Positions 1-61,587 of a DNA stretch of 64,000 nucleotides are shown piece by piece. Numbering within the stretch: position 1 is the first letter of the stretch; each line of letters begins with the position of its first letter. The stretch comes from Egicoccus sp. AB-alg6-2 (GTDB lineage Bacteria; Actinomycetota; Nitriliruptoria; Nitriliruptorales; Nitriliruptoraceae). A program made the translations under genes and the position numbers. The notes under the pieces were generated by a model that was not told the DNA's origin, made no database searches, and worked only from the letters and a program-made list of their open reading frames with translations. The DNA lies in assembly GCF_041821025.1 (NCBI RefSeq), contig NZ_JBGUAY010000002.1, positions 62,001 to 126,000 of the forward strand, given 5' to 3'.

Positions 1-831
1 GGCGCGGGCGGTCAGGACGCGCGCGAGGTGGCGGCGGAAGGCGGCGTCGGCGTTGCTGTCGCTGGGGGGCGAGGTGTCGACGTCGGCCAGCGCGGCTGCC
101 GCGGCGATCGCGGCCGGCTCCGCGGGACCACCGCGCAGCGCACCCTCGGTGGCCGTCGCACGCAGGGGTACCTCGCCCATGTGCGTGAGCCCGACGCGAA
201 CGTCGGCGATCCGTCCCTGCTTACGGCGGACGAGCGCGCAGGCGCCGACGACGGCCCACGCGTGCGACACGGGCGCGAACTTCTCGTACGCCCACGACCA
301 CCCGGCGAGGTCGGGCACACGGACGGCCAGCAGCACCTCCTCGGGCGCGAGCACCGTCTGCAGGTGCCCGGTGAAGAAGTCGGCGGCGCGGACCCGGCGG
401 CGACGCTTCTGGCTCGCCAGCACGAACTCCGCGTCGAGGGCACGGGCGAGGGCCGGCAGGTCACCGGCGGCGTCACCGTGGGCCATCGCGCCACCGATCG
501 TCCCGCGGTGCCGGACCTGCGGGTCGCCGATCCGCCGCACGACCGCGGCCAGTGCTCCGCAGCGCGCGGCCAGCACGGGCGCGTCGATCACGTCCTGGTG
601 GGTCGTCGCGGCACCGATCTCGAGGTGGTCGCCGTCGACACGTACGCCGCGGAGGGCCTCGACGCGGCCGATGTCGATCAGCACCCCCGGTGTCGCGAGG
701 CGGAACTTCATCAGCGGCAGCAGGCTCTGCCCGCCGGCGAGGAGCTTCGCGTCGTCGCCGTGCTCGTACAGCGCCGCCACGACGTCGTCGACCGTCTCCG
801 CCCGGTGGTAGTCGAAGGCCGCCGGGAACAC
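1..831 (-). CDS. coxM: Molybdenum hydroxylase (CODH-type) FAD-binding medium subunit, 3' end cut by the window
   Basis: This gene encodes the FAD subunit that passes electrons from the [2Fe-2S] subunit to an acceptor in a CO-dehydrogenase/xanthine-dehydrogenase type enzyme. The frame is open for 277 codons and runs off the left edge with no stop seen. It shows the two FAD-binding signatures of the family, AGGQSLLP at about residues 32-39 and RGTIGGAMAHGD at about 109-120. The family is usually near 280-295 aa, so only the last few residues are likely missing. The start chosen is a GTG one base after the coxS stop, which implies a coxS-coxM transcript. The substrate cannot be told from this subunit. 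Confidence 0.85.
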   Translation of the reverse strand, partial: MFPAAFDYHRAETVDDVVAALYEHGDDAKLLAGGQSLLPLMKFRLATPGVLIDIGRVEALRGVRVDGDHLEIGAATTHQDVIDAPVLAARCGALAAVVRRIGDPQVRHRGTIGGAMAHGDAAGDLPALARALDAEFVLASQKRRRRVRAADFFTGHLQTVLAPEEVLLAVRVPDLAGWSWAYEKFAPVSHAWAVVGACALVRRKQGRIADVRVGLTHMGEVPLRATATEGALRGGPAEPAAIAAAAALADVDTSPPSDSNADAAFRRHLARVLTARA

Positions 832-58228: not shown

Positions 58229-58927
58229 TCAGTGCGGGAGGTGGGCGGTCAGCGCGACGATGTCGGCGTCCAGGCCTGCCAGCACCGCGTCCGCGTCGGC
58301 CTGACGGAGCCGACGCTTGGTGCCCGCGTACGCGCGCGGTGGGAGTTGGGCCAGCTCCGCCGCACGTGAGCGCGCCACGGTCACCACGTCGTCGGCGGGT
58401 GCCAGTTCGTCGGCGAACCCGGCCTCCACCGCGGCGGCGGCGTCGATCCGCCGTCCGGGCAGCACCAGGTCCTCGAGTCGGTCGCCGCGCAGGTTGTGGC
58501 GCGCCAGGGCGATGCCGAACTCGGGGAGTTCGAAGTCGATCTGGGTCTCGGTCAACCCCCACCAGCCGCCCCCGGCCGCCACGGCGTGGTCGCAGGCCAT
58601 CGCGAACATCGTCCCCGCCGCGATGGCGTGACCCGTCGCCGCGCACACCGTCGGACGTGGCTCGGTCCACAGGCGCATCAGGCAACGCCCGAACAGCACG
58701 AGCAACCGCTCGACGCCGGCGCCGCCGTTGGCCGCCATCCACTTCACGTCGAGGCCGGCGGTCAGGATCCCCTCGCGGCCCGCGAGCACGATCGCGCGCG
58801 CGTCGGCCGCCTCGTCGAGCGCCTCGATCAGGCCCTCGAACACCTCGGGGACGAGCGCGTTCTTGTTGCCGTCGTCGAGGGTGAGGGTCAGGACGCCCGC
58901 GTCGTCGAGGTCGGTGCCGATGTCCAT
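58229..58927 (-). CDS. Enoyl-CoA hydratase/isomerase family protein
   Basis: This 232-aa crotonase-like protein has LTLDDGNKNALVPE, the oxyanion-hole GLDVKWMAANG, and GHAIAAGTMFAMACDHAVAA. The two glutamates of true hydratases are not obvious, so the reaction is unclear. It is convergent with the methyltransferase gene and 46 bp downstream of the MocR gene in the same direction. Confidence 0.85.
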   Translation of the reverse strand: MDIGTDLDDAGVLTLTLDDGNKNALVPEVFEGLIEALDEAADARAIVLAGREGILTAGLDVKWMAANGGAGVERLLVLFGRCLMRLWTEPRPTVCAATGHAIAAGTMFAMACDHAVAAGGGWWGLTETQIDFELPEFGIALARHNLRGDRLEDLVLPGRRIDAAAAVEAGFADELAPADDVVTVARSRAAELAQLPPRAYAGTKRRLRQADADAVLAGLDADIVALTAHLPH

Positions 58928-58973: not shown

Positions 58974-60482
58974 TCACACCAGCAGACGGGCCGGTGCACG
59001 CGAGGCGAGCGGCTCGTAGGCCTGCCACGCCGTCGCAAGCCGTCGCACGCCTTCGCGCAGGAGGGGTTCGGGACGGGCGAACACCAGCCGCAGGCAGCGC
59101 CGGTTGCCCTCGTCGACCGACAGGGCCGGACCGGGAACGACCGAGACCCCGTGCCGCAAGGCCAGTTCGGCGAACTCCTCGGCGTTGCCGGACGGCAGGG
59201 TCACCCACAGCGACAGACCGCCCGGAGGCCGGGTCCACTGCCACGACGGCAGGTGCTCGGCGAGCAGCGCGCACAGCAGGTCACGTGCCGGGACCAGCTC
59301 GGCCCGTCGCTCGGCCAGGATGTCGTCGGCGTGTTCGAGCAGCCGGACCGCGAGCAGTTGGCTCAGCAGCGGGGTGCCGAGGTCGGCGACCGTCTTGGTC
59401 GCCAGCATCCGCACCGCCCAGCTCGTCGGGGAACGGACCCAGCCGACGCGAACGCCGGCCCAGAACAGCTTCGCCGTCGAACCGAGCGTGTGGATGGCCC
59501 CCGCGCCGTTGGAGAAACCGGCGATCGGCGGCGGCAGGGTCGCGTCGTCGAGCGCGACGTCGCCCATCGCCAGGTCCTCGACGATGACGATCCCGGACGT
59601 GTCGGCGAGCTCGGCCAGGACCCGACGCCGGTCCTCGGGCAGCACCGCACCGGTCGGGTTGTGGAAGTTGGGGGAGAGGTAGACCAGCTTCGGTTCGGTC
59701 CGGGCCACCAGGTCGGCGATCACGTCGGTGCGCACGCCATGCTCGTCGACCGGCAACGGCACCATCCGCGCACCGAACCGGCGGAAGACGTCCAGCGCGC
59801 CGGGGAAGGTCGGGCTCTCCACGAGCACCGCGTCCCCGCGCTGCAGCGTCTGGCGGGCGACCAGCGAGATCGCCTGGTGTGCGCCGGTCGTGATCACGAT
59901 CTGGTCGTCGGTCGAGGGCAGACCGGCGGCGGTGAACCGCGCCGCGACGATGTCGCGCAGGGCGCGCAGGCCGTGGGGCACGTAGCCGTGGTGGGCGACC
60001 AGCGAGCCGACGTCCTCGGGCGAAAGGGAGCTGAGGACGGCCACGACCCCGGGGGATCCGGTCACGGCGGCGACCGACAGCTCCACCACGTCCTCGTCCG
60101 ACCGGGCCGGTTCCTCGCCCGGTCCGCTGCGCTGGTCGGCGCGGTCGTCCGAGAGGAACAACCGGGCCGTGGCCACCGCATCGACGCCCCCCCGCTCCTC
60201 GCCGGCCGGACGGCGGACCCAGGTCCCCGACCCCTGCCGGCTCTCGAGCCAACCCTCCGCCTTCAACCGGTCGTAGGCGGCCACCACCGTCGCGCGGCTG
60301 ACCGTCAGCGACCGCGCCAGGATCCGCTCGGGAGGGAGCACGGTGCCGAGGGGGATCTCGCCCCGGTCGACCGCGCGCTTGAGCCCGTCCGCCAGCTGTC
60401 GGTACAGCGGTCCCTCGCCGCCCAGCGTGTCGGCGAGGATGCCAGCGAGATGCGGACCACTTTCGCGGATTGGCTCATCCAA
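58974..60482 (-). CDS. MocR-type regulator (GntR helix-turn-helix plus aminotransferase domain)
   Basis: This protein of about 502 aa has a GntR-type DNA-binding domain near its N-terminus (GPLYRQLADGLKRAV, then LPPERILARSLTVSRATV) and a PLP-binding aminotransferase-fold domain. The PLP-lysine region is HTLGSTAKLFWAGVRVGW. MocR proteins usually control vitamin B6 or amino-acid genes. The start is uncertain: a TTG at 60482 begins the first plausible helix, and a GTG at 60647 would add an unlikely 55-residue extension. No target gene is obvious. Confidence 0.85.
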   Translation of the reverse strand: MDEPIRESGPHLAGILADTLGGEGPLYRQLADGLKRAVDRGEIPLGTVLPPERILARSLTVSRATVVAAYDRLKAEGWLESRQGSGTWVRRPAGEERGGVDAVATARLFLSDDRADQRSGPGEEPARSDEDVVELSVAAVTGSPGVVAVLSSLSPEDVGSLVAHHGYVPHGLRALRDIVAARFTAAGLPSTDDQIVITTGAHQAISLVARQTLQRGDAVLVESPTFPGALDVFRRFGARMVPLPVDEHGVRTDVIADLVARTEPKLVYLSPNFHNPTGAVLPEDRRRVLAELADTSGIVIVEDLAMGDVALDDATLPPPIAGFSNGAGAIHTLGSTAKLFWAGVRVGWVRSPTSWAVRMLATKTVADLGTPLLSQLLAVRLLEHADDILAERRAELVPARDLLCALLAEHLPSWQWTRPPGGLSLWVTLPSGNAEEFAELALRHGVSVVPGPALSVDEGNRRCLRLVFARPEPLLREGVRRLATAWQAYEPLASRAPARLLV

Positions 60483-60675
60483 TAGCAGTCCAATACTGAG
60501 GGTCGTCCGGGTTGGACTGGAAGAACGGTCGTGGTACCGTACCTCGTACCAGGCCAAAGGGCACGGTTCGGCCTCCCACCGAATCGAGTACCGGGCCAAC
60601 CGGAGACACACTTCGCGGCCCTCGGGCTCGGTCTTCGCCGAACCCACCGCGCGGCTCCGGACAACTTCATACGTA

Positions 60676-60865
60676 CGCGAGGCGGCACGCTCCCTCTCCC
60701 AGCCACCTCGCGTCCCGCTCGAGCAACGACGGGTTCGCCACCTCTCCCCCCGGCGGCTCTCCCACCGCCCGGATGCTCTCCTCTCCCAAGTTCAGCGCAT
60801 CCCGCGAACCCCGAGCTCGAGCCCACGACGTCCCCCCGGTTCTCCCACCGGGGGGACGCTTCGTT
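60676..60865 (+). ncRNA. Candidate multi-hairpin small RNA with repeated CUCUCCC loops
   Basis: Four helical elements follow in order. Hairpin 1 pairs CGCGAGG (60676) with CCTCGCG (60706). A junction stem pairs GGGTTCGC (60731-60738) with GCGAACCC (60804-60811) and encloses two hairpins, GGCGG/CCGCC (60752-60769) and GGATGC/GCATCC (60771-60802). Last is a terminator hairpin (60830-60857). CTCTCCC sits in three hairpin loops and in the junction strand (60694, 60742, 60757, 60781), and the terminator loop has TTCTCCC. These unpaired C-rich stretches are complementary to GGGAGAG-like ribosome-binding sites. The pattern recalls actinobacterial 6C-type and other C-rich sRNAs. The promoter is not identified. 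Confidence 0.55.
60830..60857 (+). terminator. Strong terminator hairpin ending the candidate RNA
   Basis: GTCCCCCCGG pairs with CCGGGGGGAC over ten perfect base pairs with an 8-base loop TTCTCCCA. It is followed by GCTTCGTTTCG, a T-enriched tail on the plus strand, so it points rightward. Confidence 0.65.
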
Positions 60866-60925
60866 TCGCCGGTCCTTTTCAGGAGCGCTACCGCTCCGCT
60901 CGGGTCGCCGGCCCGCTCCCGCTCC

Positions 60926-61033
60926 GCGGCCCGGGGATCGCCTGCGCAGGGGGCGTTCCGCCCCGACCCACGCTCCACTCGTGAGCGTCGCTTCGCTCGC
61001 TCACAGCCCCTGCTCCGGCGATCCCCGGGCCGC
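60926..61033. repeat. Long inverted repeat 3' of the dCMP deaminase gene
   Basis: The 17-base arms GCGGCCCGGGGATCGCC (60926-60942) and GGCGATCCCCGGGCCGC (61017-61033) are exact inverted copies. Pairing extends inward to 27 bases per arm with two mismatches. The interior contains a further hairpin with the dispersed 22-base repeat. The element lies 75 bp downstream of the leftward dCMP deaminase gene and may act as a 3' end structure. Confidence 0.65.
60983..61004 (-). repeat. Dispersed 22-bp repeat, copy 1
   Basis: On the minus strand these 22 bases start GTGAGCGAGCGAAGCG and end ACGCTC. An identical copy on the plus strand lies at 61684-61705, so the two face each other across the dCMP deaminase gene. 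Confidence 0.7.
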
Positions 61034-61107: not shown

Positions 61108-61587
61108 TCAGGTGAAGGGGAGGCTGGGGGTGCCTTCGTGGCCGTCGAGGAGGCGGACGCGGACGCTGCAGGCGCGGAGGAAGTCGCGGACGTCGTCCCA
61201 GCCGTCGTAGCGGCCGCCGGCGGCGACGACCTCGCCCAGGCCGGAGTTGGCGATCAGCTTGGCGCAACCGAAGCAGGGTGCGCCGGTGCAGTACAGCGTC
61301 GCGCCGCTGCGTTCGGCGGGGGAGGAGTACAGCAGCGCGTTCGCCTCGGCGTGGATGGCGATGCAGCGCTCGTAGTCGTGCCCCTGCGGCGCGTTGGAGG
61401 CGGCCCGCGGACATGCGCCCTCGTCGCAGTGTCCGAACCCGGACGGCCCGCCGTTGTAGCCCGTGGCCACGATCCGCCGGTCCTGGACGATCACCGCCCC
61501 GTGCTTGCGTCGCGCGCAGGTGGCCCGACTCGCCGTCGTCCGCGCCAACTCGAGGAAGTACTCATCCCAAGACGCCCGCTGCCCCAC
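61108..61587 (-). CDS. Deoxycytidylate/cytidine deaminase family protein
   Basis: This 159-aa zinc enzyme has the ligands His in AIHAEANALL and the cysteine pair in APCFGCAKL, and an additional Cys/His-containing insert (HCDEGACPRAA). These are typical of dCMP deaminases that supply dUMP for thymidylate. The GTG at 61587 begins the family-like WDEYFLELARTTASRA. A 22-base repeat lies on both sides of the gene. Confidence 0.88.
   Translation of the reverse strand: MGQRASWDEYFLELARTTASRATCARRKHGAVIVQDRRIVATGYNGGPSGFGHCDEGACPRAASNAPQGHDYERCIAIHAEANALLYSSPAERSGATLYCTGAPCFGCAKLIANSGLGEVVAAGGRYDGWDDVRDFLRACSVRVRLLDGHEGTPSLPFT

Follow-up and report, generated by a model that had tools for sequence, protein, structure and literature searches.

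A conserved structured RNA with repeated unpaired CUCCC motifs, divergent from a MocR-type regulator gene in Nitriliruptoraceae and putatively anti-Shine-Dalgarno

Introduction

Why would a short stretch of DNA present the same motif in one hairpin loop after another, and on what might those loops act? The question is raised by positions 60676-60865 of the window (the whole 64,000-nucleotide stretch of Egicoccus sp. AB-alg6-2 DNA analysed here), which a preliminary description, made from the letters alone, proposed to be a rightward small RNA with up to five anti-Shine-Dalgarno (anti-SD) loops. Here we consider its fold, its conservation among relatives, its strand and genomic neighbourhood, and the sites with which its loops could pair.

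Results

Fold and repeated motif

The stretch 60676-60865 folds with a minimum free energy of -96.2 kcal/mol (z = -6.0), and none of 200 shuffles was equally stable; folding of a stretch near-identical to the predicted full transcript gives z = -6.6. The expected chain of hairpins, with one stem enclosing two of them, is present and consists of P1, then P2/P3 around P4 and P5, and finally P6 (Table 1). All five sites described previously are found in the fold: the junction strand and the P1, P4 and P5 loops each leave a CTCTCCC unpaired, and the P6 loop is made up of TTCTCCC. A sixth had been missed, a CUCCC in the loop of a leader hairpin, and similar leader hairpins fold in three other loci (L003, L018 and L021). 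Some details required revision. The stems are not perfect throughout, as P1 and P5 are imperfect; the description of a strong terminator suits the P6 stem but not its tail, in which the U-tract (GCTTCGTTT) is modest; and the boundaries move slightly, with the core starting at 60675 and the terminator stem ending at 60858. The full predicted transcripts of the 28 loci described below are 262-333 nt long and contain a mean of 5.75 unpaired CUCCC motifs, compared with 0.6 in shuffles, and a mean of 4.0 hairpin loops with CUCCC, compared with 0.2; the earlier view that this pattern exceeds chance is thus borne out.

Table 1. Features of the RNA locus in window coordinates.
Feature	Coordinates	Strand	Basis
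MocR-type regulator gene (GntR and aminotransferase domains; probable TTG start)	58974..60482	-	Pfam, NCBIfam
Two direct TCCAAT boxes, 11 bp apart	60478..60494	+	conserved in most loci
Sigma-70-like promoter, TTGGAC-17-TACCGT	60512..60540	+	conserved promoter pattern
Predicted full transcript, ~320 nt	60547..60868	+	start placed ~7 nt past the -10; end past the terminator tail
Leader hairpin TTCGG-CCTCCCA-CCGAA, additional CUCCC loop	60567..60583	+	folding
Conserved structured core, P1-P6	60675..60858	+	covariance model and paired changes
P1 hairpin, CUCCCUCUCCC in loop	60675..60713	+	fold; 10 of 11 pairs changed on both sides
P2 enclosing helix (60717-60724 with 60815-60822)	60717..60822	+	fold; 8 of 8 pairs changed on both sides
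P3 inner enclosing helix (60731-60738 with 60804-60811)	60731..60811	+	fold; 8 of 8 pairs changed on both sides
Junction strand, CUCUCCC unpaired	60741..60751	+	fold of the window and of relatives
P4 hairpin, loop CUCUCCCA	60752..60769	+	fold and paired changes
P5 hairpin, CUCUCCC in loop; two structural types in relatives	60771..60802	+	folds of relatives
P6 intrinsic-terminator-like hairpin, loop UUCUCCC, then GCUUCGUUU	60829..60858	+	fold and paired changes
Convergent deoxycytidylate-deaminase-family gene, under the ComEB cut-off	61108..61587	-	Pfam, NCBIfam

Distribution among genomes

A blastn comparison with 61 related genomes gave 30 matches, two of which (L028 and L030) are short, lie in unrelated surroundings and are not copies of the RNA. 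The remaining 28 genomes each carry a single copy and all belong to one family, the Nitriliruptoraceae. The structure-based covariance search that had been suggested as a check finds the same 28 loci: a model built from the window's genus alone (four sequences) recovers all of them, including 24 that lie outside the genus and were not in the model. With a second covariance model the RNA was detected in 28 of 35 genomes from the family, and the 31 genomes from elsewhere in the class gave no match. There were two weak extra model matches (L082 and L083), and L082 looked unrelated on reading. Across 396 genomes sampled from the phylum, no member outside the family was found, in a search where distant members could be missed because few candidates are scored under strict filters. 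Public records that share the terminator are likewise from Nitriliruptoraceae, mostly metagenome-assembled genomes from sediment; the carriers form a small group of actinobacteria from salt and soda lakes. Our search of open-licence papers returned no description of this RNA and, within its limits, none of any regulatory RNA from this deep-branching actinobacterial family.

Covariation of the stems and conservation of the loops

Folded singly, 27 relatives each give the same layout as the window, with P1, P2/P3 around P4 and P5, and P6. An alignment made with MAFFT and RNAalifold recovers 24 pairs, nine of which already show changes on both sides; we adopted a covariance model because stem lengths vary and the plain alignment recovers only those 24. 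In the model-fitted alignment (29 rows, one being a spurious second match in L006), 43 of the 51 base pairs have changed on both sides and 95% of cells are paired, figures to be read with the caveat that fitting biases an alignment in favour of the model. Covariation scores 0.339, a value that falls to 0.102 once the 3' letters are redealt and to 0.03-0.06 once the partners are slid. A lack of compensatory stem changes in relatives had been named beforehand as grounds for abandoning the proposal, and such changes are abundant. UCUCCC, by comparison, is fully unpaired in 91 of 100 copies among the 28 cores. Given the double changes and the common layout of the single folds, the stem sequences therefore turn over while UCUCCC is kept unpaired. 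A P5 loop of CCCCCC is seen only in two members of a divergent genus, g12 (L024 and L025). Just 5' of P1, a GACAAC-like stretch at 60660-60665 is conserved in most members.

Strand, promoter and terminator

Covariation gives no information about the strand, and the strongest indication comes from the upstream region. The pattern TTGnnn-16..18-TAnnnT is present there on the plus strand at 27 of the 28 loci, on the minus strand at none, and in 1.4% of shuffles; its -10 lies 82-143 nt 5' of P1. The promoter therefore favours the plus strand for the predicted transcript and, with the compensatory changes, supports the earlier reading of a rightward, stand-alone structured RNA. The terminator alone would not settle the strand, because the plus-strand tail beyond P6 has only a moderate share of T (4.5 of 14 positions, compared with 3.2 on the other strand) and the minus strand has a partly T-rich stretch of its own after P1. 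Flanked G-U pairs occur at 16 positions and flanked A-C at 10, a weak difference that leans to the strand of the model.

A divergent MocR gene with operator-like boxes

The preliminary description overlooked the most telling part of the context, an invariant MocR-type regulator gene that is divergent from the RNA and separated from it by operator-like boxes. It has this position in all 28 loci, though the downstream neighbour varies, the deaminase gene being present in 22 of them. The closest NCBIfam model is that of YczR, which the protein matches with 458 bits, just below the cut-off of 487. An inverted TTGGAC at the -35 together with the two direct TCCAAT boxes makes an arrangement of the MocR operator type, in which two direct boxes and one inverted repeat are common (PMC5320631); most loci retain both the inverted TTGGAC and the second of the direct boxes. 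The locus thus has the organization of a YczR-type MocR divergon, with a divergent GntR and aminotransferase regulator and both direct and inverted boxes between the genes. The usual divergent partner of a YczR regulator is yczE, with half-sites of the GTCCA/GGCCA type (PMC4944035). The window shares with those divergons a YczR-like MocR facing a divergent partner, but the partner is an RNA gene instead of the gene for the YczE membrane protein.

Presence of the regulator also follows that of the RNA. No MocR match at E <= 1e-60 was found in six of the seven family genomes that lack the RNA, and the seventh (G004) has one match of 44% identity; the regulators encoded beside the RNA are at 57-100%. 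With G004 counted as having MocR, the Fisher p value for co-occurrence is 4e-6, which is descriptive only, because the genomes are related and some are incomplete. Because of the boxes between the genes and the typical divergence of YczR-type regulators, control of the RNA by MocR is likely.

The loops could also serve as anti-SD elements with no control by the neighbouring MocR, the linkage reflecting inherited gene order. Coding constraint could account for part of the conservation of the first TCCAAT box, which overlaps the probable start codon of mocR, and genomes lacking the MocR ortholog may just have lost the locus as a whole. The other two boxes are nonetheless retained in most loci, the linkage holds despite a changing downstream neighbour, and MocR regulators are often divergent from the genes that they activate (PMC5320631); we regard inherited gene order as an unlikely account, though one to be taken seriously.

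Complement of the loops at ribosome-binding sites

If the loops act on mRNAs, their complement should be found at ribosome-binding sites (RBSs). Whole-genome k-mer counts around ATG were too noisy and were therefore replaced by gene calls: with RBS signals left out of the calling, the window's genome gave a set of 381 genes, and at their positions -20 to -3 GGAGAG is seen 11 times (0.22 expected) and GGGAGA 11 times (0.65 expected). GGAGAG is enriched 33-50 fold at RBSs in three genomes with the RNA (47 in G002 and 33 in G010), compared with 5.6-fold and 6.4-fold in two without it (G005 and G038), all from small counts. GGGAGA/GGAGAG is thus a genuine RBS variant in these genomes, which agrees with the anti-SD character ascribed to the loops. 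Predicted duplexes of the P1 loop with four such RBSs have energies of -16.9 to -21.6 kcal/mol, and those of the 16S tail with the same sites -8.8 to -9.8 kcal/mol; the short P4 and P6 loops are predicted to give -7.7 to -13.4 kcal/mol. On this evidence, anti-SD repression by the RNA is likely.

Individual targets look more diffuse. None of the few ortholog pairs compared has a candidate site in both genomes, and genomes that have the RNA do not exceed those that lack it in the number of genes with loop complements of at least 8 nt near the start. No functional class of genes stood out reliably: a lean towards ABC-transporter genes in the window's genome (p = 0.053) did not recur in G002.

Loops that are near-identical while their targets look diffuse would also suit an RNA that binds a protein, such as Rho, a KH-domain or a cold-shock protein, through its C/U-rich loops and acts as a sponge for that protein instead of pairing with mRNAs. 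Another binding partner is possible, since no Hfq match was found in the four genomes searched. The loop sequence nonetheless complements an RBS variant that these genomes genuinely have, and mRNA pairing is how the closely similar C-rich loops of sX13, NfeR1 and B11 work; we consider a protein sponge improbable.

Comparison with known RNAs

No family in Rfam 15 matches the RNA. A relation to 6C (RF01066) had been suggested, and covariance-model searches of the window, genome and genus lend it no support: there is no match in the window at the gathering score or in a local search up to E = 10, and none in the genome or genus at E <= 0.001, and we reject membership of 6C. The two 6C hairpins with loops of about six C have no counterpart here, where the loops are CUCUCCC/UUCUCCC; a C-rich loop in an intrinsic terminator is shared, with UUCUCCC in the loop of P6. 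Five weak 6C matches were found among relatives. L049 and L052 (genomes G047 and G048, from f3, another family of the class) have hairpins with CCCCCC loops and by eye resemble true 6C; the others look by eye like plain terminators.

In its putative working the RNA is most like sX13, NfeR1 and 6C/B11, and it shares with these C-rich-loop antisense RNAs an anti-SD motif that is conserved and unpaired in several of its loops. B11, the mycobacterial 6C, pairs its C-rich loops with G tracts near RBSs and makes use of its terminator loop (PMC12395582). The window RNA likewise has C-rich loops, including one in the terminator, but it is ~320 nt long, folds into a branched structure, shares its locus with MocR and has CUCUCCC in its loops where 6C has C runs. 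The sX13 RNA of Xanthomonas has three stable stems whose apical C-rich loops act, independently of Hfq, on G-rich motifs, many of them at RBSs (PMC3771888); it differs in its length of 115 nt, its fewer loops, with CCCC, its unrelated lineage and its lack of MocR linkage. Rhizobial NfeR1 (alpha-r14) has highly variable stems and one unpaired anti-SD motif in each of three hairpins, the three being redundant, and is activated by LsrB and repressed by NtrC (PMC10746234). Its motif, CCUCCUCCC, is absent from the window RNA, which accordingly lacks three hairpins of that kind; NfeR1 is alphaproteobacterial, with three copies and no nested junction.

A different relationship would hold if the functional transcript were the minus strand, whose GGGAGA loops would offer CsrA a set of GGA motifs and titrate it, in the manner of CsrB/RsmZ with their short motif repeated in hairpin loops. 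The minus strand folds well (z = -4.45) with GGA in its loops, it has the T-rich stretch 3' of P1 noted above, and CsrA is encoded in the window's genome (G000:C7:8955-9110) and in 11 other family genomes, with none found in the other 23. Judged by the promoter pattern, the GGA loops lie on the promoterless strand, and the weak excess of flanked G-U pairs leans the same way. Nor does CsrA track the RNA, being present in 11 of the 28 genomes with it and in one of the seven without (Fisher p = 0.38), and several genomes that are 96-97% complete and carry the RNA have no CsrA match. The promoter and the distribution of CsrA make this reading very improbable.

We give slightly less credence still to a structured RNA whose loops are not its main base-pairing seeds, such as an RNA-polymerase-binding RNA like Ms1 or 6S, for which a length of ~320 nt and a single copy per genome are within range, as the layout here is branched with repeated loops and there is no Rfam match. 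Homology to Ms1 by neighbourhood is rejected, the flanking genes being a HAD hydrolase and an oxidoreductase there (PMC9130861) and MocR and the deaminase in the window.

Discussion

This is very likely a real, new family of conserved structured RNA of a known functional kind, with strong covariation, from a deep-branching actinobacterial family. A multivalent, trans-acting anti-SD repressor under probable MocR control is the best explanation, because the complement of its loops is a real RBS variant, and on balance we think it probable. A plausible scenario is that an RNA of ~320 nt is transcribed rightward from the sigma-70-like promoter and ended by the intrinsic terminator, and that its rigid, covarying stems display CUCUCCC or CUCCC in one junction strand and some five to six loops. 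By pairing with GGGAG(AG) at the RBSs of certain mRNAs, each loop would prevent translation from being initiated, and the many copies could allow one RNA to bind several mRNAs or to re-bind quickly. The divergent YczR-like MocR would act through the TCCAAT/TTGGAC boxes that overlap the promoter, with a PLP- or amine-related signal setting the level of the RNA.

We put forward only tentatively the fuller proposal of a MocR-sRNA module, in which a PLP-binding regulator and a conserved divergent noncoding RNA with about six anti-SD loops would together set the translation of mRNAs with a GGGAGAG RBS. Should MocR control prove true, a noncoding RNA would join the known targets of MocR regulators, and a PLP-type sensor would be linked to the translation of a class of RBSs, a link that is directly testable. 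The RNA also lends itself naturally to asking why many copies of one seed should be carried by a single regulatory RNA.

Two further features of the locus may be noted. A 27-nt inverted repeat (60926-60952 and 61007-61033, 93% complementary, with 54 nt between the arms) sits between the RNA terminator and the deaminase gene, of which it is possibly the terminator, and letters similar to it occur near the L002 copy. Directly after mocR, an enoyl-CoA-hydratase-like gene (58229-58927, minus strand) has GGGAGA at its RBS and is a possible local target of the RNA.
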